The translations under genes and the position numbers were made by a program. 23,426 bases of DNA from a virus. Below, one piece after another: positions 5,044 to 23,426 of the stretch; positions within the stretch are counted from its first letter, which is position 1, and each line of letters begins with the position of its first letter. The DNA lies in IMG/VR virus record IMGVR_UViG_3300009149_000293, positions 1 to 23,426 of that record; one strand, written 5' to 3'. Under the pieces are notes generated by a model. It made no database searches. It was given only the letters and a program-made list of their open reading frames with translations, and was not told the origin of the DNA.

Positions 5044-6084
5044 TTACTTATTTTGTTTAAAATTTCTTTTTTCTTTTCTAGTTAACTTTAAGAATGGGGT
5101 TAAAAAATAAACCCAATTATCCTCTCCTTTTGGTAAGTATTTAAAAATACCATCGTCCATCATCATCCTTATTAAATTTCGATGACTTCTACCCTCAGGG
5201 TCTAAAGTTTCAGTGTAATACAGTTCCACAAGTTCTTTACCCTCATTAGTTATCATAGGTATCGATAAATCAACTATCTTTTTATTTACCTTAAAAAACT
5301 CATCCCCGTGAATTCCTGTTTTAGTTTTACCGGTTAATAAATTCTTAATCGCAGTACCACCTTCCTTATTCTCGAATAACCTTTGTGCTTTTGTTAAAAT
5401 ATCGGTAACGGAAACTGTATTATCAAGTATTTCAGGGAAAAATTTAACTAAAGTTTTCTCACCAAAATAATATATTCCGTCAATATTGTCAGATTTATCA
5501 CCAGATAAAATTTTAAGGGTGGTAATGTTAGAGTGTGGAAACTCATAATATTTACCCTTAATTTTATCACCATTATGGTAGAATTGTCTTGCGTTTGGAG
5601 AGTATACAGAGACGTTCTCCCCAATTAGTTGGGTAAGGTCCTTATCCCCCGAAAAGATTGTTTTGTGTTCGTTATTTGATATCTGACAATAATAAGCAAT
5701 TAAGTCATCAGACTCATTATTGTTAATATCGATTTGTCGGATAAACATCTCTTCCAAATAAAGTTTAACCCTACCTTTTTGTTCAATAAAAGACTCTTCT
5801 TTGTCTTCATTTGAATCAGAATGTTGTTTTCGATTTTCTTTATATTGGGGATATATCAGTTTTCTCACATTAGAACTACCTTCACCATCCCAAAAAACAA
5901 CAACTTTATCATAATTATATTCCTCAATGAAACGTCTTGTAGTATTCAAGAAATGCCATATCCCACCAATATGTTTACCATTATGATAAAAATCTTTTAC
6001 CCCATGAAATCCAATCTTAAGGAGGTTATTCCCATCAATTAATAATGTTTTAGTCACATTTCTTTTGTTGTGGTGATTTCTCAC
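5044..6084 (-). CDS. rnh: 5'-3' exonuclease / RNase H (flap endonuclease type)
   Basis: Member of the FEN/PIN 5'-nuclease family, like T4 RNase H, which removes RNA primers and 5' flaps on the lagging strand. The metal-binding acidic residues are in the usual order: Asp17 (LLIDGNN), Asp66 (VVFWDGEGSSNVRK), Glu124/Asp126/Asp127 (NESDDLIAYY), Asp147 and Asp149 (FSGDKDLTQ), and Asp196/Asp199 (SGDKSDNIDG) in the helix-hairpin-helix region. Length 346 fits the family. The given start is a GTG. A second GTG at 6057 (codon 10) is the better candidate: it is preceded by an A-rich CACAACAAAAGAAAT leader and gives the typical opening MTKTLLIDGNN (337 residues). The broken HNH gene ends 10 bases upstream. 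Confidence 0.92.
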   Translation of the reverse strand: MRNHHNKRNVTKTLLIDGNNLLKIGFHGVKDFYHNGKHIGGIWHFLNTTRRFIEEYNYDKVVVFWDGEGSSNVRKLIYPQYKENRKQHSDSNEDKEESFIEQKGRVKLYLEEMFIRQIDINNNESDDLIAYYCQISNNEHKTIFSGDKDLTQLIGENVSVYSPNARQFYHNGDKIKGKYYEFPHSNITTLKILSGDKSDNIDGIYYFGEKTLVKFFPEILDNTVSVTDILTKAQRLFENKEGGTAIKNLLTGKTKTGIHGDEFFKVNKKIVDLSIPMITNEGKELVELYYTETLDPEGRSHRNLIRMMMDDGIFKYLPKGEDNWVYFLTPFLKLTRKEKRNFKQNK

Positions 6085-6094
6085 CGGTTCGTTA

Positions 6095-6754
6095 CTACAA
6101 TATTTTGTTACTCTTTTTCAAATTATCTTCAGCCCACAAGGGTTGGAGATTTTCATAATGAGACAACTTGTGAAGTTCGTCTTCTGTTTTTGCCGATGAT
6201 AATGGAATGACGTGGTCAATATGCCACTCACCCCTGTTATCCCAAGTCATACCATCAGTAAATTGGTTTTCTAAATATTCTTTAAGAAATTGGGGGGAAC
6301 AACCAACAATGTCAAAGGTTTTGTTTTTCTTGGTAATGTTCCGAGACTTTAAGAACTTATTTAATCTACATCTAACTTTATTTGTTAAGTTAAAAATGGG
6401 GTCATTATCTCTTCGTTCTTTTCTTCATTCGTGTTTTCTTAATTTATAATTCTCCCGATACTCTTTTCTTTTTTCTGGATTTTTATCTAACCAATTTTTC
6501 TTTATTTCTTTAAGTTTTTCCGGATTTTCTTCTCTCCATTTTTTGTGACGATTATAAACCCATTCAGGATTCTTGTCCCTCCATTTTTTTTGTTGTTCTA
6601 AAACTTTTTTAGGATTTTCTTTTACATATTTCTTACCACGCTCACCATTACATTTTTTACAACAATACAACAACCCATCTTTTGAACTCTTAGACTTACC
6701 AAACTCACAAACACTTTTATCGTTTTTACAGATACTACAAACTTTAGTTTCCAT
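6095..6754 (-). pseudogene. HNH homing-type endonuclease interrupted by in-frame TGA
   Basis: Read through, the frame codes for 219 residues with one TGA (6425-6427) at codon 110. Residues 1-40 hold a zinc-ribbon-like CxxC ... CxxC (Cys6, Cys9, Cys32, Cys35). Residues 41-100 are four 15-residue lysine-rich repeats. After the TGA the same frame continues into an intact HNH nuclease domain: WHIDHVIPLS (His178, Asp180, His181), YENLQPLW (Asn202) and Asn211, ending in TAG-TAA. Such genes act as free-standing homing endonucleases in phages. No other methionine precedes the nuclease region until codon 169, so the nuclease could not be made without readthrough. TGA is not a sense codon here, because the large tail genes use TGG for tryptophan and hold no in-frame TGA. 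A CGA-to-TGA change is the simplest origin. It sits between uvsX and the exonuclease, overlapping the small ribbon-helix-helix gene by 11 bases. Confidence 0.85.
6455..6634 (-). repeat. Four tandem 15-residue repeats inside the HNH gene
   Basis: Residues 41-100 split into four units with an exact 15-residue period: KKYVKENPKKVLEQQ, KKWRDKNPEWVYNRH, KKWREENPEKLKEIK and KNWLDKNPEKRKEYR. The invariant core is K-[KN]-x-x-x-[KE]-N-P. The units are basic and probably helical, which suits a DNA-binding linker between the zinc ribbon and the nuclease domain. The DNA is diverged between units, so this is an old protein repeat rather than a recent duplication. Confidence 0.8.
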
Positions 6755-7956: not shown

Positions 7957-8175
7957 TTAGTTATATGTTTCTTTTAATGTTTTTAATTTATCTCTAGCTT
8001 CACCCAATTTACCAATTGCGTTATCAATTTCTTTTACGATTTGAGGGTGTTCTCCCACCGCTGACGGATTGTTATAATATAAATCTAATATAACCTCAGC
8101 ATCTGCAATTTCGGATCTATATTTTAATTCTAAAGACTCGTAAATCTTATCTTGTAATGTTTTAACCACTTTCAT
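7957..8175 (-). CDS. Small helical protein between gene 32 and uvsX
   Basis: A 72-residue product that is almost all helix-forming and rich in Lys, Glu and Leu, with two likely amphipathic helices (about 1-33 and 44-70) joined by a short NNPSAVGEHP turn. There is no cysteine, membrane segment or catalytic motif. I do not recognise the family. It begins after the gene 32 terminator hairpin and ends one base before uvsX. That slot would suit a recombination accessory factor such as a UvsY-like mediator, but it is about half the length of T4 UvsY (137 residues) and no homology can be claimed. The ATG at 8175 follows the leader CATAAAAAAAAT. Confidence 0.75.
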   Translation of the reverse strand: MKVVKTLQDKIYESLELKYRSEIADAEVILDLYYNNPSAVGEHPQIVKEIDNAIGKLGEARDKLKTLKETYN

Positions 8176-10196: not shown

Positions 10197-13100
10197 TTAT
10201 TTTACAACATCATATAAAATAATAGATTTTTCAACTAAAGCCTCTATTTTTTCCCTGTCTAATTTATCCATATCACTGTAAACATTTTCATTTAGAGTTA
10301 CCGGACCACTATTTAATATTAAGAATTTAGTAACACTAACTTTATCTTTAGTTACACCACCAACTCTTTTTTCCCATCTACTTTTAAGTAAACCAACGTT
10401 GTCACTTAAACTATTAAAAGAAACGTATGGGGTATTAGTTTTAGAACAATAAAAAGTTTTACTCGACATATATTGATTAACAATACCTTGAGGGTATTTT
10501 TCCTTAATATCAACACCTGAGAAATTATTGTCATAAGATGTGAACATGTCGTTTGTTTTTGATTTTAAATATATTGAGGCAAATATAATATATTTAAGAT
10601 TACTATTATTAGAACCTAATGTAGTCTCTATATTAACCTTAACATCATTATAACTACTTTTAGTTAAAGATGGTGTCACAATATCAAACCCACTATATAC
10701 ACCATTAGAATTAGGTTCACAATTACTCACATTAGAAATCTTTTTGTTAGGTTGATCCGTTAAATCATTAACAATACCATCTTTTTGAGATATAACATTA
10801 GAGTCTACCGTTCCCGTTTGAGTTGTACTAGTAGTGGCTATTCTATCTTGATTTTTATCAAGTATACTGTTTAATAAATTAGCCCTTAAAGTTTGTAAAA
10901 ATGAATCGACTTTAGGTAATCCTGCCGTCGGTTGTCTAATCCCCTCAATGATAGTTTCAAAAGTACCGGGGCTAATAACGTGGTCAACTCTTGTAATCAT
11001 ATAAGGACCATTAAACATAGGTACGTGTCTTAAGTTAAAATACATAGTTGGTTGCATCACGGCATTACCCATCATACTAAGTACACAACTATAACTTCTA
11101 TTTTTATAAAGATTATATAACGATAAATTTTGTGTGGAACCACCTCTTCGATTACCCTCAACTAACAAATTTGTTGCCTCAATAGATTCATAAGTGGCTT
11201 TTCCTGGGTCTTGTGAAACTCTAAAAGAAGTAAAAATTGACTGATTTTGAGGCCCTATATCAACATTAAACCCAACTACTTTATTAGAAATAGCATAATC
11301 TGACTTATCCGCCTTAATATCGTCAAGCAATGGATTATCACTCTTTCTACGTAAATCAAACGAATCACTCTTAAACCTATAGTCAACATTATCTTTTAAA
11401 TCCAAAACCGAACTACCTTTGTTAGTGTAAAAACAAACTAATTTAGTAGATGAATCTCTATAATCAACATTTGCAAATGTACCAAATAAAGTATTTGCAA
11501 TTTCTAAACTATCTTCCAATTTAGGTGTGGGGTTTTTTACAACATCTTGTACATTATAAAAATTAACATATGAAGGAAGGTTCATTACTTGAAAACCATT
11601 TTCCACTAAAATTCCTGTTATAAAAGTCAACATATCAATCGTTGAGGAATTTTCTATATCAAATAAAGAATCTTTTAACTTATATATGTCAACAAAAACC
11701 TTATCCCCAATGTTTCTACTTGCTCTATCTAATAGTAAAACATCCTCAAATAGAGTTTTATTAGATGAAAAGTCATTTCCAGCAATCCATTTATCGTTTA
11801 AAGCTTTAAATATTTCATATAATTCTACTTTAGTTTGGTCACCTTCAATAACACTTTTTTTATTAAGTGGAGTTGTCGAGTCCACATCCGGTAAACTGGA
11901 TTTTAATTTAGTGATTAAATTATTTGTTATTTTATTTTGAAAACTATCAACGTTATTTAAATATGTATCCATTAATTGTCCGAACTTTGCCGAAGTCATT
12001 GTCCCATCAACCAACTTTTGGGTCGCATATATTTTAATTATCGGTGAAAAGTCTTTAATATTTTGAGATTCAAACGCTATATTATTATCAACAAAAAAAT
12101 CAGTAATATAGGAACCATCATCGTCATATTCTAACTCTGATATATCTGAAAAACCAACATATAATTCTAAATCTACCCACTCAGTAGGGTACGCAAGTTT
12201 AGACGACGCAAAGGTCGTAGTATTACTACCTGTTGGTAAAGCATTTGGTGTAGATAAGGTATATTGGTTCCAAGTGTAACCGTCTACTATCGTAACGTTA
12301 TTTGAGAATGAATAAAAAAGTTTCTTATCAAAAAGACCGGGATTTCCGTATTTGAAAGCAACATCATAATCCAAAAACTTAGACAAATAATCGGTTATTT
12401 TACCCATTTGGTCATTCTGTGAATTACCAACTGTTTCTTCACCTGTCGTTAAAGTCACCTTAGGGGATTTAGCCATATCAATAAGCATCAGATGAAAATT
12501 TTGAAAATCCCCATTAAAAGAAGGTGATTCATTTTCTATTAATTCTTGTACACTTGTAGTACCTTGTTGAGCCTGATTTATCACAGAAAAAGGGTCTCCT
12601 AAATAATCAAATCTACTTTCGGTAAACGTTAAAAAAACGGATTCAAATTGGTCCATAACGTCTTTTTCAAAAGATGAAAACATTTCACTAATATTACTAT
12701 ATTCATCAACGAGCCCATTAATTGAAAAGTTTTGTGGTGGGCTTGGTAAATCAACATTTGACCCTAAAACATTGACAGTAATGGTGTTAGACTCATCAGA
12801 ATAAACCTTTTTAATATGTTGGTTATACTCAGGTTTAACAACTTTACTATTATCAAAATACCCATAATTAGGTGCCGACCAAAATAATCGAACCGAACCA
12901 TTATACATTGATTGATTATTCTTTATTTCAAATTTCATATCACCATTGATATCAATACACTCATCTTTAGTTTGATTAATTAAAGAACCATTTGAGGGTA
13001 TTATAAATGATGACACACCATCGTTACTTTTATAAAAAACACTCCAAGGAACCACTTTAATATCTTCATATAAACTAGTATAGTTTATAACCGCATCATC

Positions 13101-16100
13101 GACAAATGTCATATCCAAATTTGTATCAATACCATATTGTATATCCGAATCAGTATATCCGTTGAAAACATCTACACCATCATATAAAAAAGTAAAGTCA
13201 TTGATTAATTTAGGGTAAAATCCGGTATTAATCATCGTAACATTTTTAGTTATCAGAACCGGAGAATAGAATGGAATTGGTACAGTTTCCTCCATTACCA
13301 TATCATATGGAGAACCATTTATATTTAAATTGTATTTCTTATTAGGTGAAGAAGTAATTGGGTCGTAATTTGAGTTTTCATCAAAATCATTCCAAGAATC
13401 ACTTAATATATCAACATTACTTTCAATATACGTTTTATACCTATGCCACTCAGAACCAATCTTTAGGACCCAAGCGTAAGGTACTTTATGTATACCCCCA
13501 AACTTTTTAATCGTACTAAATATATAATCCAAATTAATAGGGTTAACATAATTACCGTTATTTGTTGTAAATTTTTCTCTAAGTGTAGCTAAAGGTAAAC
13601 TATTAATAAATAAATAAGCTGGGACAATAAATGGGTTCGAACTAGAATTTCTTATTTTATCAGCTGAACTCTGTAATGAATTTATAAAATAAGGCGTATT
13701 CATAATAGATACAGTCTGATTTGCTCTCACCAAACCAATATAATCATAATAATTTAAATTACCTTCAGTTAATAACTGTATATTGGGGCTACGATAGAGG
13801 TAAAAATCACTTAAATTAGTGTTCTCATAATTTGGCATAATTAAGGTCCGTTTAAACCCAAAATTCGTTATCGGCCTAATTTCATCTGAAGTAGTATTAA
13901 CTTTGAAGTTCGAAATAACTTTTTTATCCTCATTGAGGAATAATGTTTTGGAAGTACTTTTAGAACCATTAACATCACTAATCTTGTCACCATCTTGTAA
14001 ATTATTTTTTATCCAAGTTAAATCAGTAAAAGGATATGTATCAACAAAACTAATAATATTACTCTTGCTAGATTTCAAATAATCAACTAAGTTTTCACTA
14101 CCAGGTAATCCGGATTGGGGTCTTGTCACTTCACTATTTAAAAAATAATCAGAAAGAAACATAAAGCTAGCATTATCAACATCATTTTTTATGTACCCCG
14201 TATTAAAAATACCTCTTATTAAATTATTCCAAGATAACCCTTGTCCATCATTAGAAATTGACTCTAAAATCGTTAAAAAGTTTTCACCGGTGATATTAAA
14301 AGTTTTAAGGTCTTGTATTAAAAAAGGATTATCATTAGATAAACTTTCAATAATATTATTTTTTTCAACCTCCGCCAGTATGTTAGTAATCTTATCAGAA
14401 TCAAGTAAACCATTAACTCTAACAAGTCCGGTATAATTAGAAGTTAAAAATAACCTTTCATATATTTCATAAAAATATTTTATCTTTTCTTTATTTTGAT
14501 AAACTTCATTACCAATTGGGAATTCAATAGCATTAACCGAAACTCTATTTGTCTCAAATAATTCGTTAGGGTTTGATGTTGATTGGGTAGGTGACAACCC
14601 TCTTTTAGTTAACCCCCTTAAATATTCTTCAACAAATTCAACTTCAGGCCAAACATCATATAAATAACCCTTAGTGATATTAGTATATCTACTATCTCCC
14701 GGATAAGCGATTTCATATTTTTCCCTATCATCACCCGCGTTAGTTGCAACAATAAATTGAGGCCAAGGATAAACCGGATTATTACTATTAACACCCGATG
14801 AAACATTATCAGGGTTAGCGTTGGCGACTTCACTGTTAAATATAGCGTCTTGTCTGTTCTTATCATCTCTAACGTCCCAAGCTTCTCTATGAGTATTATC
14901 CAATAATCTAAGAAACGCCTCTCCATTGGCGAATATTACGGCTAAAACATTTCTAATAGTCGGAACAAAACCAATACCATTATTCCCTTTATCATTTAAT
15001 AATTCAGATAAAGAGTCGGTTAATTGTTCTTGTATTTTTTCTTTAATCTGTCTAACTTTTACTTCGATTTCATCAATAATCCCCATAAAGGACTCTTTAC
15101 CTTCAAAAACATAATAATAACTAACCTTATCCGGGTTCGAATCTGATGAGTTTTGATTTGAGGAAAAATCTAATTCGGTATTATTAAAAATACCTTTTGT
15201 TATTAATTCAACTTTAAAATCGTCAATTTGACCATCTGTAGGTTGAACACCTAAACCTTTTTGTTGGATATAAGTTTCTCTTAAATCGATATCATTTATC
15301 GTCGAATTTTTTTTATAGAATGTATCGTAGGTTATAGGATTTGGTATGGACGATGGAACAGGTGGTTTACCACCAATAACGTAAGAACCATTTTCACCTA
15401 AAGTTTCATTTTCACTCAATTTAGAATTAAATTTAACTATTAACCCTTTCAAGTTTGATATTGCGGTACTTCTTTTTTGAGGGTCCCTTAACTCTTTTTT
15501 GAAAGTATATACTTTGGTTTTATTGGTATCGTCAAGAATAAAAAAGTTTTGAGTATCCATATTCTGATTAAACCAGGAACCGCTCTTGTCGGTACCAGCA
15601 TAACTAAAAACCTCTTTTGTATAATCTACTAAATCATTAGTATATTGGGTAACATTAGTTAAAGGGTCCAAATTCTCTTTAGTGAAAGTATCTAATGTGT
15701 TTTTTATAAATAATTCCAACCTAAACTTTAATTGCATCAAAGTTAACTCAGGAAAACCATCATCTATAAGTCCCTTAGATTTATATTCCCCATATAATTC
15801 TCTAATTTTTTGATAACCCAACTCAACAACCCCATCTTCTACATCAGAAAAGTTTGTTGAGGTATTTTTTTTAGTTTGTATTTGAATTCTTGAAGAGTAC
15901 ATGTGGGGGACGGCTAACAAAGAACCCATAGTCACCTCCGCCAATATAGTATATTTGTAAGTATAAAATTCTAAATCTATACTAAAGTTACCCTTGGCGG
16001 TATCATATCTAGAAGAAAAACTTTGCAACATTAAAGGTAATCTAACGGCCTTCCCATAATAACCTTTAATCGTTAAATTAAATTTAGGATATGGAAAATT

Positions 16101-16667
16101 AAAGAACGCAGCATATGGGGAACTATCACCACCTTCAAACATAGCTCGACCTTTTATATCTTCTAATTCAATTCTTATACTTGGTAAGAAATCCAATCCT
16201 TGCCTTATATTTATACTAGTAATACCTAATAATCCATTATCAGTACCACCTTGATCCCCATCAGAAAGAAGGGTTTGTCTAACATAAAACGATTCATCAT
16301 TTTTAGCGGTTTCATTAGGGGTTCGATTAAATTTTTGTTTTACCTGATTAGAACCCTGACCTTTAAGAGAACCTTTACCCGTTAACTCATCAGTATATGA
16401 ATTATCTAAATTTGTTTTATCACCTTGCTTTAAAAAATTGATAGAACCTACGGTTATTGTCTGATTTCTATCGTCATTAGACACCCCTAAGGCAAGTTTA
16501 GTTCTTGGTAGTAAGTTACACTCCAAGTTGGCATACATAACCAAATTTTCATGGTTAACAAGTCGGTCTTTGATTTTACCTTCACTATCAACAACCTTAT
16601 TAGGGTCAATTAAGGTAATATTATTATAATCAAATTCAACAAAAATATTTTCATTATTATCTACCAT
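10197..16667 (-). CDS. Giant baseplate hub-like structural protein (2156 residues)
   Basis: One uninterrupted frame of 2156 residues. An N-terminal module (about 145-260) has GITSINIRQGLDFLPSIRI, SPYAAFFNFPYPKFNLTIKG and YYGKAVRLPLML, a pattern seen in large tail/baseplate proteins of T4-type phages. The middle is long and low in recognisable motifs. Near 1780-1915 a hub-like (gp27/gpD type) segment appears: NRSYSCVLSMMGNAVMQPT, MYFNLRHVPMFNGPYMITRV and PGTFETIIEGIRQPTAG. After a Ser/Thr-rich linker, the last 170 residues (from about 1985) form a separate domain with KYIIFASIYLKSKTN, TSYDNNFSGV and FNSLSDNV, faintly like a peptidoglycan glucosaminidase. The expected acid appears replaced by Lys2035. 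It probably sits at the tail tip. The start overlaps the gp53-like gene by 11 bases (TATGGTAGATAA). Role by pattern recall and position, not by search. Confidence 0.78.
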   Translation of the reverse strand: MVDNNENIFVEFDYNNITLIDPNKVVDSEGKIKDRLVNHENLVMYANLECNLLPRTKLALGVSNDDRNQTITVGSINFLKQGDKTNLDNSYTDELTGKGSLKGQGSNQVKQKFNRTPNETAKNDESFYVRQTLLSDGDQGGTDNGLLGITSINIRQGLDFLPSIRIELEDIKGRAMFEGGDSSPYAAFFNFPYPKFNLTIKGYYGKAVRLPLMLQSFSSRYDTAKGNFSIDLEFYTYKYTILAEVTMGSLLAVPHMYSSRIQIQTKKNTSTNFSDVEDGVVELGYQKIRELYGEYKSKGLIDDGFPELTLMQLKFRLELFIKNTLDTFTKENLDPLTNVTQYTNDLVDYTKEVFSYAGTDKSGSWFNQNMDTQNFFILDDTNKTKVYTFKKELRDPQKRSTAISNLKGLIVKFNSKLSENETLGENGSYVIGGKPPVPSSIPNPITYDTFYKKNSTINDIDLRETYIQQKGLGVQPTDGQIDDFKVELITKGIFNNTELDFSSNQNSSDSNPDKVSYYYVFEGKESFMGIIDEIEVKVRQIKEKIQEQLTDSLSELLNDKGNNGIGFVPTIRNVLAVIFANGEAFLRLLDNTHREAWDVRDDKNRQDAIFNSEVANANPDNVSSGVNSNNPVYPWPQFIVATNAGDDREKYEIAYPGDSRYTNITKGYLYDVWPEVEFVEEYLRGLTKRGLSPTQSTSNPNELFETNRVSVNAIEFPIGNEVYQNKEKIKYFYEIYERLFLTSNYTGLVRVNGLLDSDKITNILAEVEKNNIIESLSNDNPFLIQDLKTFNITGENFLTILESISNDGQGLSWNNLIRGIFNTGYIKNDVDNASFMFLSDYFLNSEVTRPQSGLPGSENLVDYLKSSKSNIISFVDTYPFTDLTWIKNNLQDGDKISDVNGSKSTSKTLFLNEDKKVISNFKVNTTSDEIRPITNFGFKRTLIMPNYENTNLSDFYLYRSPNIQLLTEGNLNYYDYIGLVRANQTVSIMNTPYFINSLQSSADKIRNSSSNPFIVPAYLFINSLPLATLREKFTTNNGNYVNPINLDYIFSTIKKFGGIHKVPYAWVLKIGSEWHRYKTYIESNVDILSDSWNDFDENSNYDPITSSPNKKYNLNINGSPYDMVMEETVPIPFYSPVLITKNVTMINTGFYPKLINDFTFLYDGVDVFNGYTDSDIQYGIDTNLDMTFVDDAVINYTSLYEDIKVVPWSVFYKSNDGVSSFIIPSNGSLINQTKDECIDINGDMKFEIKNNQSMYNGSVRLFWSAPNYGYFDNSKVVKPEYNQHIKKVYSDESNTITVNVLGSNVDLPSPPQNFSINGLVDEYSNISEMFSSFEKDVMDQFESVFLTFTESRFDYLGDPFSVINQAQQGTTSVQELIENESPSFNGDFQNFHLMLIDMAKSPKVTLTTGEETVGNSQNDQMGKITDYLSKFLDYDVAFKYGNPGLFDKKLFYSFSNNVTIVDGYTWNQYTLSTPNALPTGSNTTTFASSKLAYPTEWVDLELYVGFSDISELEYDDDGSYITDFFVDNNIAFESQNIKDFSPIIKIYATQKLVDGTMTSAKFGQLMDTYLNNVDSFQNKITNNLITKLKSSLPDVDSTTPLNKKSVIEGDQTKVELYEIFKALNDKWIAGNDFSSNKTLFEDVLLLDRASRNIGDKVFVDIYKLKDSLFDIENSSTIDMLTFITGILVENGFQVMNLPSYVNFYNVQDVVKNPTPKLEDSLEIANTLFGTFANVDYRDSSTKLVCFYTNKGSSVLDLKDNVDYRFKSDSFDLRRKSDNPLLDDIKADKSDYAISNKVVGFNVDIGPQNQSIFTSFRVSQDPGKATYESIEATNLLVEGNRRGGSTQNLSLYNLYKNRSYSCVLSMMGNAVMQPTMYFNLRHVPMFNGPYMITRVDHVISPGTFETIIEGIRQPTAGLPKVDSFLQTLRANLLNSILDKNQDRIATTSTTQTGTVDSNVISQKDGIVNDLTDQPNKKISNVSNCEPNSNGVYSGFDIVTPSLTKSSYNDVKVNIETTLGSNNSNLKYIIFASIYLKSKTNDMFTSYDNNFSGVDIKEKYPQGIVNQYMSSKTFYCSKTNTPYVSFNSLSDNVGLLKSRWEKRVGGVTKDKVSVTKFLILNSGPVTLNENVYSDMDKLDREKIEALVEKSIILYDVVK

Positions 16668-16980
16668 AATAAAAGAAGTGACTATCTAATTGAGATTTAT
16701 AGTCTTGTATAGAACTTACTAAAGGATATGGAATAGTCAAGATAGATGCGTCAGATATATTCCACTCTTGACCACCAAATTCAGGATTCGCACTCATTAT
16801 TAACCAACCAAAAAAAGGTGTACCGTAATATTGTTGAGACACTTTATCTAGTCTTGACTGACTAACTTTATATATATATTTTTTATCACTACTTTTACTA
16901 GGTAATGATATGTAAGGTACCGTAGTTTGTTTACCTTCAATAACAAAACCTTTGTATCTATTATAATATTCTTTTCCCAT
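16657..16980 (-). CDS. 53: Baseplate wedge protein, LysM-like (T4 gp53 type)
   Basis: 107 residues. Residues about 35-87 follow the LysM-like pattern of gp53 and tail protein X: a strand, RLDKVSQQYYG, TPFFGWLIMSANPEFGG, then a WNISDASILTIPYPL strand. In T4, gp53 joins wedges into the six-fold baseplate. The family of short tail LysM proteins is structural rather than peptidoglycan-degrading. The gene lies between the long baseplate frame (3-base gap) and the giant hub gene (11-base overlap), a typical baseplate operon position. The assignment to gp53 rather than gpX-type is by similarity of pattern only. Confidence 0.7.
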   Translation of the reverse strand: MGKEYYNRYKGFVIEGKQTTVPYISLPSKSSDKKYIYKVSQSRLDKVSQQYYGTPFFGWLIMSANPEFGGQEWNISDASILTIPYPLVSSIQDYKSQLDSHFFYYGR

Positions 16981-16983
16981 TTC

Positions 16984-19512
16984 TTAAGTTAATTTTACAA
17001 CACCATCCCATTTATCACCACCAACACCAGTATAAAGCTCTTTTACTTGTATTTGTTGATTTTCTATTTCTGAAGCCACAACTACAGTGGAATAATTAAA
17101 TTCCCTAACCTTACCTTTAACATAATCAGGTTCCGACATGAACTGCACATACGCCTCATCCACCTTAAACCCATCTATTAATTTTTTCTCTGCATTTAAT
17201 TCATCTTTAACTATATCCGCAAATTCATCACAAAGTCCCCTAAAAACTTTTTTTAATTTACCATCTTCATTTATAGGTTTGGATATTACGGCTTCATTAA
17301 ACATTTCAAGTTTATCATTATTATTAAACACATTTGATAAAATCAAAAACATATGTTGGTTCTCCGGAATTTTAAAGTTATTGATTTTGGAGTCACTTAC
17401 CCAATTAAATGTACCATCTGCTTCATTATAATCGCTACCATTTTCGGTTATAAATCTTTCCTCTATTGGAGATGCCGTATTTACACCGGATAAATATTCT
17501 TTATAGAACTGATTAAGACCTTTAAGAACTTTACCATAATCACTAACCATTTCTTGGAAAGTATTTTCAGGAACTGGTTGGTCTGATGAATTATCAACTT
17601 TATCGGTTGAGGTTGTATTATATATTATAGGAATACCTGGCTTTGGTATTTTACCGTCAAACTTTTTTGAGATTAAATTAATTTGTCTTAAAGTTTGAAT
17701 CATGTTTTGTTGTTGTTCCGTTATTTCGTTAATTTTTGTAAATATGGGTGATGAAAACGTAACTTTATAACCATTAATATAATTTACCATGTTAGTCTGA
17801 ACAGACGATATCTTACTATATGAGAATTTTTTTTCACGTAATCCTTTTATTATAAAATTTTCATTATTATCTATAGGTTTTTGTATGTCATCAATTAAAA
17901 ATTTAAATAAATTATCTATATTTGTTTGAGTGTTTTCAGGTTTCCCATAAATTTTAACTGGCTCTTCAGTTCCATCGTTAACACTTGTTCCCGCACCAAT
18001 AAAACCATTACCATCAATATATTTCCTATTTTTAGAAACCAACTGCCAAATACCAAAGTTTTCTTCATTAATAAACGTCTCAACCTTATTTGGTATAGAA
18101 ACATAATAGTTTTTCTGAGATTCTAATAAACTATCCATTATTTTTTGATAAGTCATAATTCCCGACATACCACCGGGAACGGTGTTATTAGAAGTGACCG
18201 TTCCAATAGTGTTACCCCCTTCATTTGGTAGGTCATTCTCAACTCTTACCTGTTCTTCCGCATCTTCAATTCTATTAATTAACTCTCGGTCTAAGATTGA
18301 CCTATCTTCGGTTGCCACCGCTCTTTCATCATATATTTCAGTGTTAGCATAATAATTGAATGATAACGCGTTTTGTAATTGTTCAACCGGTCCGGTTAAC
18401 CCCTGACCACCAATAAAATCAAAACTCAAATTAATTTCCGCAATCATAGGTTGAACACCTATTCCCTCCGGATTTAAATCTAAATTAAGTGGGTTATATG
18501 CTATGTTTATACTCTTAGGTACTATTTTAGTATTATAAAAATCCCCTATCCTTAAAACTAAAATTGGTGGTGTACCGAATGAAGTATTGGTGGCGTCATT
18601 ACTAACTAAAGTATTGTTACCATTACTATCAGTCCTAACTATAGGTATTGTTTCACCAGGTCTTAAACATTGATTTAAAAAAGTCAACCTCCCATTTAAA
18701 CCTTCCGGAGTCATCGAATGAAAAGCAGGATTAAAATATTTTATTTTTTCCTTAATAGAATCGTACACCATTGGACTTTCTTGTTGAACAACTTCAAAAT
18801 AATCACATTCCGATAATAGTTTTCTTAAAATTCTTTTACCTATACCATCTTTTAGTTTCTCTTGAACCGTTTTAGTAAATTTATCACTTATAACATTAGT
18901 CTCTTTTATAACATCTACCAATTCAGGTATAGTCTCAGTAGGTATAACTTCAATTTGATTAATAGACACTCTTCTACAGGCCATAGCATTTACAGAATAT
19001 ATTTGAGAACCTCTATTAGTTTTACCATCCCTATCTTTAATATTTTTTGTACAATCAACCTGTGACCCAAAATCACCATTAGAGGTTTTAGGAGAAATAA
19101 TTTCTTCATTAGAGATATTTTCCTCACCTACAGCCTTTGTTTCACTTATTAAAATGGTTTTATCATCAAAATATTGTTTTAAATTAGCATCCCCTGATGT
19201 AAAACTCTCAAGAAATTGTTTAACCGAATCAATTCTTCTTTGAGATAATGTTTTATTATAATCTTCGGATGCGGGTGCCGATGCCGACCCAATTAATGTT
19301 ATATTTATTCTACCCTTTTTTTCCTTTAATATATCGAAAGCGTCTTTAATAAAATTACCACTTGCATTATTAGCAATAGCATTATAATTATCGATTACAA
19401 CAGTATCAAAGAATTCTTTAACATTTCTTTCAGAGCTACCATCAACAAAAAGACCATTGGATTTAGATACATAATTATCAATGTTTGACTGGTCAGTGTA
19501 TGGACCATACGT
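16984..19512 (-). CDS. Baseplate/tail protein, C-terminal part after an in-frame stop; no start codon of its own
   Basis: The frame is open for 842 codons after the TAA at 19513, in the same frame as the upstream gene. The first ATG is at 18984 (giving 666 residues: MACRRVSIN). The 176 codons before it contain no ATG, GTG or TTG but clearly code: residues 31-104 form an OmpA-like segment (GRINITLIGSASAP, YNKTLSQRRIDSV). After residue 176 comes a baseplate-type region with PPILVLRIGDFYNTKIVP, NLSFDFIGGQGLTGPVEQLQ and NALSFNYYANTEIYDERA, resembling large tail-tube/baseplate proteins of T4-type phages. The rest has no motif I know. With the upstream ORF it would make one protein of about 1662 residues. 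The ATG at 18984 lacks the usual A-rich leader, so independent expression from it is doubtful. Confidence 0.75.
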   Translation of the reverse strand, partial: TYGPYTDQSNIDNYVSKSNGLFVDGSSERNVKEFFDTVVIDNYNAIANNASGNFIKDAFDILKEKKGRINITLIGSASAPASEDYNKTLSQRRIDSVKQFLESFTSGDANLKQYFDDKTILISETKAVGEENISNEEIISPKTSNGDFGSQVDCTKNIKDRDGKTNRGSQIYSVNAMACRRVSINQIEVIPTETIPELVDVIKETNVISDKFTKTVQEKLKDGIGKRILRKLLSECDYFEVVQQESPMVYDSIKEKIKYFNPAFHSMTPEGLNGRLTFLNQCLRPGETIPIVRTDSNGNNTLVSNDATNTSFGTPPILVLRIGDFYNTKIVPKSINIAYNPLNLDLNPEGIGVQPMIAEINLSFDFIGGQGLTGPVEQLQNALSFNYYANTEIYDERAVATEDRSILDRELINRIEDAEEQVRVENDLPNEGGNTIGTVTSNNTVPGGMSGIMTYQKIMDSLLESQKNYYVSIPNKVETFINEENFGIWQLVSKNRKYIDGNGFIGAGTSVNDGTEEPVKIYGKPENTQTNIDNLFKFLIDDIQKPIDNNENFIIKGLREKKFSYSKISSVQTNMVNYINGYKVTFSSPIFTKINEITEQQQNMIQTLRQINLISKKFDGKIPKPGIPIIYNTTSTDKVDNSSDQPVPENTFQEMVSDYGKVLKGLNQFYKEYLSGVNTASPIEERFITENGSDYNEADGTFNWVSDSKINNFKIPENQHMFLILSNVFNNNDKLEMFNEAVISKPINEDGKLKKVFRGLCDEFADIVKDELNAEKKLIDGFKVDEAYVQFMSEPDYVKGKVREFNYSTVVVASEIENQQIQVKELYTGVGGDKWDGVVKLT

Positions 19513-19515
19513 TTA
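19513..19515 (-). other. In-frame TAA inside an OmpA-like domain
   Basis: The codons run CAA TAA ACG TAT GGT. Upstream of the stop lies the probable first strand of the domain (GLAFYFDNDIPDPN, residues 796-809); downstream is the rest of it. A single CAA-to-TAA or TAT-to-TAA change, a base-call error or programmed readthrough would all explain it. TAA is the usual stop in this window, so it is not reassigned. Confidence 0.7.
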
Positions 19516-21972
19516 TTGAAACGGTACAGACGATGTGGTATTTTTAGTGTTAGGGTCAGGAATATCGTTGTCGAAATAGAACGCTAATCCTTGATACTTA
19601 GTTTTAAAAGTATTAATACTAGGGTCAGGAGTATCTTTAGGATCATCTTTAGATGGCCCTTTAGGTAGTTCTTTTACGATTTCTGTTACCACCTCCGTTG
19701 TAGGGTAATTACTTAATAACTCTTGATACGTATATAAGTCAGACGATGGAATAGTATTAAATTTAATACCTAAATCATATAAATCATATTTTAAACATCC
19801 AGCAAAGAAAGAATCCAACATAGAATTTACCCTATCCCTATCCTTAGAAGCTCCTTCTAATTGTTTCTTAACAATTAAATTCATTATTGATGGATGGTCG
19901 ACCACTATTCTCCATTTTAAAGTACCAGTTCTAGAAGTATCTTTATATGTATACATAAGTTCGGGTCTTCCTAAAAATGAAGTCGAATTCCAATTAGCGG
20001 TAGTACTCTCACTGAAAGAAATATCATAAGGTGGAAACCACATTACCCTACCACCATTAGGACCTTTTTCACAATTAGGTAAATCGTCATATCTAAACCC
20101 TGGTTTACTTGATGTTCTCCAAGCTAAATTTTCAATCGAGAACATATATTTTTTAGCGATAAAGTTATTTTGACTAACCTCAACAACATTTTCACTCGTA
20201 GGGGCAATATTTAAATTAAAAGTATTTTTTAGAACCGAATTATTAAATTTTCGACCTGAATCGACAATACCTTCTGTTTTTTGTAAATCATTGTAAGTGT
20301 AGTAAGGAGTGTCTTTAGTAAAAACTCGACAATATTCAATACCGGCTTGAGACCCGTCAGAATTATTAGTATATGATAATACTTGAGAACCTTTAGTTAT
20401 CTCTTTATACCCATCATTAAAAACTTTACTAACTTGATTAATAGCGTTACCTACGTGTTTTAATCTAGCAATTCCCGAAACGTTATCCGCCGAATCAACA
20501 AGTCTTTGTGTTCGGTCTAATATTGAAGTCTCTTTAAATGTGAGATTGGTAGATTCTCCTCTAGTAAACTGGCTAGATATACCATTCCAATCTTCATCTT
20601 GAGATCCACTACCCCCTCCCGGAGTAGCTTTAAATCCAGCATTTGGTTTATATTTAGGAGAAACCCAAACAAATTCTCCCGTTATTCCTCCACCATCAGT
20701 AAATGATTTCCCTGCAAGTCCAAAATTTAAACTATCAATATTACCCTCATATAGTTTACCCATCTCAGACGGACCATAAACAGGGGACTGTTCTTGTTGA
20801 CCAAATGGGTTAATAGGGACTTGATTAGGTGGTGATGTTATTGTAGATGGGTCGGCGTCTTTACTACCAACATAATAACCCCCGTTTAATGTTCCGTTAT
20901 TTGGGTTTATTAAATCAATTGCAAGATTAACTAAAGCTTGACCAATACCTAATAACCCACCAAAATCCTTATTAAAACCTGGTTGATACCTATTATAGTT
21001 TAACGACCTAAAAAGAACTGACCTTTGACCATTACCGGTGTTAGCTATAAATACTTCTGAAGGTTGTCTTCTTTTATTAAGAATAGGACCTAAAAAACCA
21101 CCCGTTAATTGATTAACAACATTCAAAGCTTTAGACGTTTGTTTACTATCAAAATTAAGTTCCTCAAAATAATCACCCGGTATAGGAGATACAGGCCAAT
21201 ATGCCCCTCCCAATCTAGTAACAAAATCAACCGCTCGTAATATCGGATTCTCAGGGACCGTAATCCTCCAATTTCTATATATTAAAGGTTCTTTACCTGT
21301 TGCAATTAAAGACGCCTCAAATGGGTCTTGTAACGAATCTAAATTAACTAAACCAACCGTATTTTGATATATCTCAGCATCAACTCTATTCTGAAAAGAA
21401 ATTTTAAGTTGTTCGGCTCCTAATCTAGCTAAATACGAATCTTGAGATAAAGGTCCAGAATCCCCTTGGGGGTTATCCGAAAAAAGTATTGTATAAGGAC
21501 TATAACTTGACGATACAAAATTAGACGGGTCCCAATAAGGTTGATAAATAAAGTTATTTAACTGTATATCCGTTATGTCAACCATATACTGATAACCCCC
21601 ATTGGGTCCATAAGAATTCTGTAGGTAAGCCGCGTCAATGAATGTGTCGTTTAATATATCCATATTAGTCTGATTGGGACTATATTCCGCATATGTCGGT
21701 AAAACAGGTACTAAAGGACCATTAAACGTAATCGCATTATTAAAACCACCCGTAGGACCAAACTCATTTAAAACATATGATTGATTAGGGAATGGACTAT
21801 TAGCAATTAAAAAATCAGGTGAATCAACAACACTATAATTACTTAATTGTGTTGGGTATGTTAAAACACCAACCGAAGGTGTATAAGTACCCAGAACAGT
21901 ATATGGGGGTAGATTAACACCCATAAGAGCATTCCTAAATGTAGATGTTGAAGCGAATGATAAACTACTCAT
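19513..21972 (-). CDS. Tail/baseplate structural protein, N-terminal part (819 residues)
   Basis: A large structural protein. It holds Gly/Tyr motifs repeated near the N-terminus (FGPTGGFNN at 71, YGPNGGYQYMVD at 121, and GPNGG again near 637). Near the end, PPYDISFSESTTANWN, GRPELMYTYKDTSRTG and LKWRIVVDHPSIMNLI (about 647-700) resemble the domain of tail-tube or baseplate proteins that reads GRPE-Y-Y followed by a strand-rich fold. The C-terminus has a Pro/Asp/Lys linker (765-786), then GLAFYFDNDIPDPN, which looks like the first strand of an OmpA-like domain continuing past the stop. It lies between the probable tape-measure gene and the gp53-like gene, as for central baseplate or tube-end proteins. 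The ATG at 21972 follows an A-rich leader and a conserved 17-base motif. Exact role unknown. Confidence 0.8.
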   Translation of the reverse strand: MSSLSFASTSTFRNALMGVNLPPYTVLGTYTPSVGVLTYPTQLSNYSVVDSPDFLIANSPFPNQSYVLNEFGPTGGFNNAITFNGPLVPVLPTYAEYSPNQTNMDILNDTFIDAAYLQNSYGPNGGYQYMVDITDIQLNNFIYQPYWDPSNFVSSSYSPYTILFSDNPQGDSGPLSQDSYLARLGAEQLKISFQNRVDAEIYQNTVGLVNLDSLQDPFEASLIATGKEPLIYRNWRITVPENPILRAVDFVTRLGGAYWPVSPIPGDYFEELNFDSKQTSKALNVVNQLTGGFLGPILNKRRQPSEVFIANTGNGQRSVLFRSLNYNRYQPGFNKDFGGLLGIGQALVNLAIDLINPNNGTLNGGYYVGSKDADPSTITSPPNQVPINPFGQQEQSPVYGPSEMGKLYEGNIDSLNFGLAGKSFTDGGGITGEFVWVSPKYKPNAGFKATPGGGSGSQDEDWNGISSQFTRGESTNLTFKETSILDRTQRLVDSADNVSGIARLKHVGNAINQVSKVFNDGYKEITKGSQVLSYTNNSDGSQAGIEYCRVFTKDTPYYTYNDLQKTEGIVDSGRKFNNSVLKNTFNLNIAPTSENVVEVSQNNFIAKKYMFSIENLAWRTSSKPGFRYDDLPNCEKGPNGGRVMWFPPYDISFSESTTANWNSTSFLGRPELMYTYKDTSRTGTLKWRIVVDHPSIMNLIVKKQLEGASKDRDRVNSMLDSFFAGCLKYDLYDLGIKFNTIPSSDLYTYQELLSNYPTTEVVTEIVKELPKGPSKDDPKDTPDPSINTFKTKYQGLAFYFDNDIPDPNTKNTTSSVPFQ

Positions 21973-22018: not shown

Positions 22019-23426
22019 TTAACGGTTTAAATAAGGGTTCATTAGTTTAGTTTTTGAAGAAGTTGGAGAACTTAACCCATTATTGTACATGGCTTCTTTC
22101 ATAGACTGATATAATTTTTGTTTCACCCCTTGGTTTTCCAACGCTAAAATAATTTGATTGGTATCTATTTGATTAGGTGCGTCTATTTTTATATTTAAAT
22201 TAATTTCAGCCGTAGATTTTATCTCAATCGGAGTTTGGGGTTCGTTACTACCATTATTTGGCTTAACATCCTTAAACTTTTTTAAAAATTCCTCAAATTG
22301 ATTATTACCCACATTCGTATTATTAGGAAGGGTCTTCATTTCTTTAAGACCATCGATAAAACTTTCGAACCCTGTACCTCCAAATATTGTATCTTTCGCT
22401 AACGGCTCTATTGTCATTCCGGGCATTTTTATAAAATCTTCAACCGGTGTAATCGGTGTTTGAGAATTATTCCCTACCGTCGTCATTTTATCCATTAACG
22501 TCTGCAACAGAGGTACAATTTTATTATCACCACTTGCAAATTTATCAAGGTTAGTTTCCGCATTACTGAGAGCGACTTTAAAATTTTCATTTAATTGTGT
22601 TGCAATTTCATTACCAACAGACCCTATATTAGTAAAAACCTTACTTAGACTTTGTTCACCCGATACTAAATTTTCTATAGAGTCAATTAAAACATAAGAT
22701 GTTTTATCAAAAGTACTACTTATTTTACTGGTTGCACCTAAACTATCCGATATAAAATCATATATAGCTGTTTCTATTTTTGCCGCCACCTTATAAGTAT
22801 CATCCGTAGTTTTAGCTCCGGCAACACCCGTAGCCACTTTATTTTTTATAACAGTAAGTGACGCGTTTATTCTTTCTTGAAGATTTAGTTGTCCTTTTTG
22901 AATCTCCTCAATAGATTTAGGTCTCCCTGTTTCCGCAATAGCCGCCAAGTCACCCTCTTTTAACTCCATTACATTTTTGGTTTGAGCTTCCCCTTTGTCA
23001 TCCGTAAATTTAATTGTCGCCACCCCGTCTTTCATCTCAGACATATTAGCAATCATTGTTTGTTGTTCTTTACTAAGATTTAACCCTGAAGGCATCCTAA
23101 TTTGACTCATTTTTTTATCTAACTCTCTAGCCGCTAATCCCATTCTTTCAAGTTCACCAGCAGGCATCCCAAGTTCTATACTTAATTCTCTTAACCTTCT
23201 TTTAGCTCCCGGCATAATTTCAAAATTACCGTCGGCATTCATTTTAGTGAAAGATTTACCTAATTCCGCTAATTGGTCTTGTAATTTTTCAGGATTATTC
23301 ATAGCGTTGTACATCAACTCTAATGGGTCTTTCAAACCACTAACATTAACACCTAATCTCTGCATAGATGCCGCCATTTTAATAGCCCCCTCAGGGTCAA
23401 AAACTTTATCTGCGAAATCTAATGTA
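22019..23426 (-). CDS. Probable tail tape-measure protein, C-terminal part (5' end beyond window)
   Basis: The frame stays open to the right edge: before the first in-window ATG (23377) it reads LDFADKVFDPEGAIK without a stop, so the gene begins outside and the ATG is internal. About 469 codons are visible. The sequence is helical and repetitive in character (ELGKSFTKMNADGNFEIM, LRELSIELGMPAGELERMG, TYKVAAKIETAIYDFISDSL), with few cysteines, typical of a tape-measure protein that sets tail length. The last 80 residues form a distinct end: a Pro/Asn-rich linker, strand-like STAEINLNIKIDAPNQID, then a helical tail. It precedes the baseplate genes, matching the usual order. Other virion proteins with long helices are possible. 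Confidence 0.65.
   Translation of the reverse strand, partial: TLDFADKVFDPEGAIKMAASMQRLGVNVSGLKDPLELMYNAMNNPEKLQDQLAELGKSFTKMNADGNFEIMPGAKRRLRELSIELGMPAGELERMGLAARELDKKMSQIRMPSGLNLSKEQQTMIANMSEMKDGVATIKFTDDKGEAQTKNVMELKEGDLAAIAETGRPKSIEEIQKGQLNLQERINASLTVIKNKVATGVAGAKTTDDTYKVAAKIETAIYDFISDSLGATSKISSTFDKTSYVLIDSIENLVSGEQSLSKVFTNIGSVGNEIATQLNENFKVALSNAETNLDKFASGDNKIVPLLQTLMDKMTTVGNNSQTPITPVEDFIKMPGMTIEPLAKDTIFGGTGFESFIDGLKEMKTLPNNTNVGNNQFEEFLKKFKDVKPNNGSNEPQTPIEIKSTAEINLNIKIDAPNQIDTNQIILALENQGVKQKLYQSMKEAMYNNGLSSPTSSKTKLMNPYLNR

Follow-up and report, generated by a model that had tools for sequence, protein, structure and literature searches.

Among the closest described counterparts of the locus analysed here are the OmpA-like domains of Pal and OmpA proteins (Pfam PF00691), represented by the structures 4r40 (Pal in the TolB/Pal complex), 4pwt and 3td5 (A. 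baumannii OmpA with a peptidoglycan peptide). In A. baumannii OmpA, D271 and R286 bind diaminopimelate, according to excerpts of the published account (PMC6572160). Literature excerpts that bring together OmpA-like domains, baseplates and phages deal with type VI secretion. We describe a domain of this type encoded by a phage gene in a 23,426-nucleotide stretch of viral DNA (IMG/VR record IMGVR_UViG_3300009149_000293, positions 1 to 23,426; hereafter the window). The phage domain shares with Pal and OmpA proteins the predicted fold and a YNxxLSxRR-like stretch with an invariant Arg. Unlike those proteins, it is embedded in what is probably a large phage structural protein and scores under the Pfam cut-off, and the Asp of A. 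baumannii OmpA is replaced by a Ser that is invariant in the phage relatives.

Two further points of reference come from phages. A0A6J5L6C4, an uncharacterised protein of an uncultured Caudovirales phage (BFVD), matched a structure model of an intact relative of the gene (L002, below) with a Foldseek E of 4.5e-41 and 30% identity over 865 columns. Flavobacterium phage immuto (Immutovirus) was the only phage to match the window's RecA-like recombinase (38%, 4 records) and came second in the matches to the window's helicase (25%). Profiles of both halves of the gene found no match in the immuto translations; in a control to which the window halves had been added, these were found.

The gene, here called the tail gene, lies on the minus strand of the window, a point on which a preliminary description of this DNA was silent. 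Its 819-codon reading frame opens with an ATG at 21972 and is terminated by a TAA, past which the same frame stays open for 842 codons, up to a TAA at 16984–16986. From base composition, an open run of this length has a chance probability of ~7e-34. Past the other listed open reading frame (ORF) ends in the window, the frame stayed open for 0–33 codons in 12 of 14 cases; the two exceptions were 109 codons, in a broken HNH gene discussed below, and 108 codons, past 16984 and into the next gene. The earliest ATG, GTG or TTG after the premature TAA is codon 177, at 18984, and because the 176 codons before it hold no start, 528 bases would stay a gap in an annotation. The window letters thus confirm the layout given in the preliminary description, and its proposal that these 528 bases are coding was borne out by low dN/dS ratios against the two nearest intact copies (Table 1).

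Table 1. Positions in the window of the tail gene, its neighbours and the second interrupted gene.
Feature	Position	Strand	Remarks
Tail gene, N-terminal half	19516..21972	-	819 codons, ATG start; OmpA-like strand 1 near the end
Premature in-frame TAA	19513..19515	-	Apparently private to the window contig; absent from the 148 relatives compared
Start-less 528 bases, most of the OmpA-like domain	18985..19512	-	Coding; dN/dS 0.07 (L002), 0.21 (L003)
Tail gene, remainder	16984..18984	-	Mechanical 666-aa ORF; its ATG is an internal Met, not a start
OmpA-like domain	19516-19635 + 18985-19512	-	Spans the TAA at 19513-19515
107-aa gene	16657..16980	-	Baseplate wedge subunit family; phrog_7145, E 2e-5
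2156-aa protein	10197..16667	-	Follows the 107-aa gene; order conserved in relatives
HNH endonuclease gene	6095-6754	-	Cut by an in-frame TGA at 6425-6427

Relatives were collected from viral contigs by searching with each half of the gene. The first half gave 88 matches, of which the best 80 (78 distinct loci) were kept; the second half gave at least 594 matching stretches, and again the best 80 were kept. Of the 160 sequences examined, 150 hold both halves; this number includes the window and its own copy (L001), leaving 148 relatives. Among these matches, the junction is free of a stop in all 148, 146 carry both halves in one frame, and 145 are uninterrupted by any stop or frame change along the whole matched span. 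The 148 loci include loci on the same contig and near copies, and the 146 in-frame loci amount to 107 distinct proteins. Where both ends were present, 87 of 91 relatives among the matches listed were 1537–1709 residues long (range used, 1500–1720), and the other four measured 1004, 1103, 1750 and 1897 residues. At the column of the stop, ten kinds of sense residue occur among the 91 aligned relatives, and likewise among a set of 54.

The nearest intact copies among the matches listed are L002 (IMGVR_UViG_3300035487_000676) and L003 (IMGVR_UViG_3300000128_000012). The first half of the window gene is 93% identical to each, and the second half is 81% identical to L002 and 79% to L003. Both copies agree with the window gene in length, in domain order and in the 107-aa and 2156-aa genes downstream; unlike it, they form a single continuous frame without a stop. 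In none of the relatives compared was the gene divided into two with a genuine start between 18985 and 19512. The preliminary description had offered, as one of its explanations, that a nonsense change or base error split a gene of about 1662 residues, and the relatives, with one gene of that size and a stop-free junction, support it.

Three of the 148 relatives are broken elsewhere in the same gene, in ways that look like frame slips. L158 carries two adjacent stops far upstream of the junction (6304–6309), in a short stretch resembling a local frame slip. In L055 the frame changes before the junction (near 5630), and in L124 it changes ~210 codons past it (near 8100); the junction is open in the coding frame of both.

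When the exact junction sequence was used as a pattern, with any codon allowed at the position of the stop, no near-identical contig turned up in a search that may omit such records. A degenerate version of the pattern found three contigs, each already in the compared set. By tblastn, the tail gene family had no match in 50,697 phage records. A genome collection yielded 54 pattern matches, of which 3 code for portions of the second half; these lie on contigs titled Holophagaceae, Prochlorococcus and Paludibacteraceae and are too partial for naming a host. Judged by the matches in viral contigs, the family is widespread in metagenomic phage contigs.

The preliminary description had also placed the first strand of an OmpA-like domain just before the stop and the body of the domain after it. 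The strand GLAFYFDND does lie before the TAA, and the match of the body proved real, though weak by sequence. PF00691 matched the region past the stop with an E of 7.6e-7 and 24.1 bits in a genome search and with an E of 6e-4 and 20.5 bits by hmmscan; both are below the curated 27.2 bits, and both come from the broken window copy, which is scored without strand 1. A profile of intact relatives matched six Pal or OmpA-family sequences (E 1.2e-4 to 7e-4). An AlphaFold model was examined for an intact segment of L002 that comprises the end of the first half and the whole second half (mean pLDDT 77.5); over residues 1–230, pLDDT by block ranged from 61 to 96 and was at least 85 in 19 of 23 blocks. 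With residues 1–232 of this model, VIA aligned 4r40 (Z 9.2, rmsd 3.1, 121 residues), 4pwt (Z 9.0, rmsd 2.7, 121 residues) and 3td5 (Z 8.8, rmsd 2.5, 119 residues), scores to be read against the tool's own warning that a Z of 7–8 is common. Nearly all of the top 48 VIA rows were of OmpA, Pal or MotB type. Helical VIA rows outside residues 1–232 were weak (Z < 5) and were set aside. A Foldseek search of the PDB with the L002 model returned no row at E ≤ 0.001; the OmpA-like assignment rests on the agreement between the profile search and VIA, and the model predicts an OmpA-like fold that spans the junction in the intact relative.

Within the L002 segment, strand 1 occupies residues 18–20 and the column of the stop is residue 41, which places the stop in a variable linker that separates strand 1 from the remainder of the domain. 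The Met at 18984 stands directly ahead of the last OmpA-like strand and is invariant in all 54 relatives aligned there. HMMER alignments set the register of the diaminopimelate-binding Asp, and all 54 relatives have Ser at that position. The position that, by the register of the motif, would be that of the diaminopimelate-binding Arg is Arg in every one of the 54.

The neighbouring genes bear on the role of the protein. Neither half matched a baseplate family in PHROGs or Pfam; searches of Pfam, PHROGs and PDB sequences found nothing for the first half, and the structure model of that half (mean pLDDT 42.7) was too poor to use. The next gene, of 107 aa, provides the link, as it matches phrog_7145 and its place in the gene order is conserved. 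Among the matches listed, tblastn found this gene in 144 of the 160 sequences (window included), and it lies at most 300 bases after the tail-gene match in 130 of the 143 sequences that have both. The 2156-aa gene was found in 142 of the 160, again counting the window, and adjoins the 107-aa gene in 141 of 141; it had no tblastn match in the 50,697 phage records. The tail gene product is probably a large structural protein, with a baseplate role suggested by this neighbourhood. At the end of the window, a 452-aa ORF (22019–23426) falls short of the length of its relatives (657 aa in L002); the contig probably stops before the true start of this ORF is reached.

We compared divergence beyond the stop between the window and intact genes. 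Identity to a further relative, L006, was 49.4% for the window and 49.6% for intact L002, with dN/dS of 0.324 and 0.315, respectively. The 666-aa stretch gave a dN/dS of 0.47 between the window and L002, which alone could hint at relaxation. Measured against L006 (window 0.312, L002 0.319) and L086 (window 0.361, L002 0.390), the two ratios are alike, which marks this stretch as a fast part of the gene rather than as decay in the window. On these ratios, the coding constraint after the stop appears not to be relaxed, and because divergence past the stop is no faster than in intact relatives, the break would be either very recent or confined to the assembly.

A second, unrelated gene of the window is also interrupted. 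The HNH endonuclease gene has 109 codons ahead of its TGA and 109 after it in the same frame, and the part after the TGA holds the HNH domain (PF01844, 22.3 bits; cut-off 21.4). In the best 80 of 361 relatives, both parts lie in one open frame in 73; the first part was not found in 6, and in 1 it lies in another frame. At the sites of both window stops, the relatives among the matches listed have sense codons. Genes for HNH-type endonucleases are often lost. Either window stop could be a base error or a real change.

We also looked for a general excess of private residues in the contig. At conserved columns, odd residues numbered 0 of 245 in the tail gene, 0 of 27 in the 107-aa gene and 0 of 7 in the 452-aa ORF; for the 2156-aa protein there were 4 of 279 in the window and 3 of 268 in L003. 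These counts do not appear to point to a broadly error-rich contig, although they carry little power: with ~560 conserved columns, a modest error rate could go unnoticed.

Taken together, the split is real in the letters yet appears to be private to the window contig. The reading that we favour, with a probability of about 0.93, is that of one gene of ~1662 codons interrupted in a single contig by one premature stop, arising from a base error or a recent nonsense mutation. Between these two origins, we lean somewhat towards a wrong base in the assembly; a real and very recent nonsense mutation in the population is the lesser but still substantial possibility. A single long gene of a phage known from metagenomes would thus have acquired a stop in the linker of its OmpA-like domain, or the assembly would carry a wrong base there. 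Should the stop be real, the truncated protein would miss the greater part of the OmpA-like domain as well as ~650 further residues, and it would probably be non-working unless the host suppresses the stop.

A variant in which the stop is real but leaky or suppressed by the host in one lineage, giving a mix of short and long forms in particles as a newly arisen and unshared trait, seems to us very unlikely. We hold it similarly improbable that TAA and TGA are decoded as an amino acid by the phage or its host, or that a suppressor tRNA is supplied. The occurrence of two window genes with in-frame stops, one TAA and one TGA, is what such a code would produce, but 12 other ORFs end in TAA (10) or TGA (2) with 0–33 open codons beyond, and the relatives among the matches listed have sense codons at both places. 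With TAA ending 10 of those 12 ORFs, it is not reassigned, and an alternative genetic code was rejected; as for a suppressor, the window contains no tRNA genes.

More doubtful still is programmed readthrough of the TAA, which the preliminary description had raised as a way for the phage to make a short and a long form (here 819 aa and 1662 aa). The frame past the stop is open and still constrained, as readthrough would have it, but an erroneous or new stop would leave the same constraint in place. The stop is absent from all 148 relatives among the matches listed, including L002 and L003 with first halves 93% identical to that of the window, and its column falls in a variable linker. For the 100 bases that follow the TAA, folding was no better than in 300 codon shuffles (z 0.44), and after the TGA of the HNH gene no RNA structure beyond that of shuffles was found (z −0.85). 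That two unrelated genes of a single 23.4-kb contig are cut, each by a different stop codon, also argues against a site-specific readthrough device. The proposal of two forms is not supported, and the stop is most likely not a new way of making two proteins.

Equally hard to sustain is the presence of two real genes, the second beginning with the ATG at 18984 after a true gap of 528 bases: a mechanical ORF list does give a 666-aa ORF from 18984, but the Met there is internal and invariant (54/54 relatives), the 528 bases encode a conserved domain, and no stop splits any of the 148 relatives among the matches listed at this place. No weight was given to the missing ribosome-binding site at 18984; few window ORFs show a clear one, which makes it uninformative.

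For the favoured reading of one interrupted gene, the practical meaning is one of caution: automatic annotation would give two proteins and a gap where the relatives hold one gene. The replacement of Asp by Ser in all 54 relatives suggests that the module either docks to the cell wall in an altered way or is purely structural; from its sequence, the OmpA-like domain may bind a different ligand or have a structural role. The gene family is more notable than the stop, with 107 distinct sequences among the matches listed and an OmpA-like domain in which Ser takes the place of Asp.
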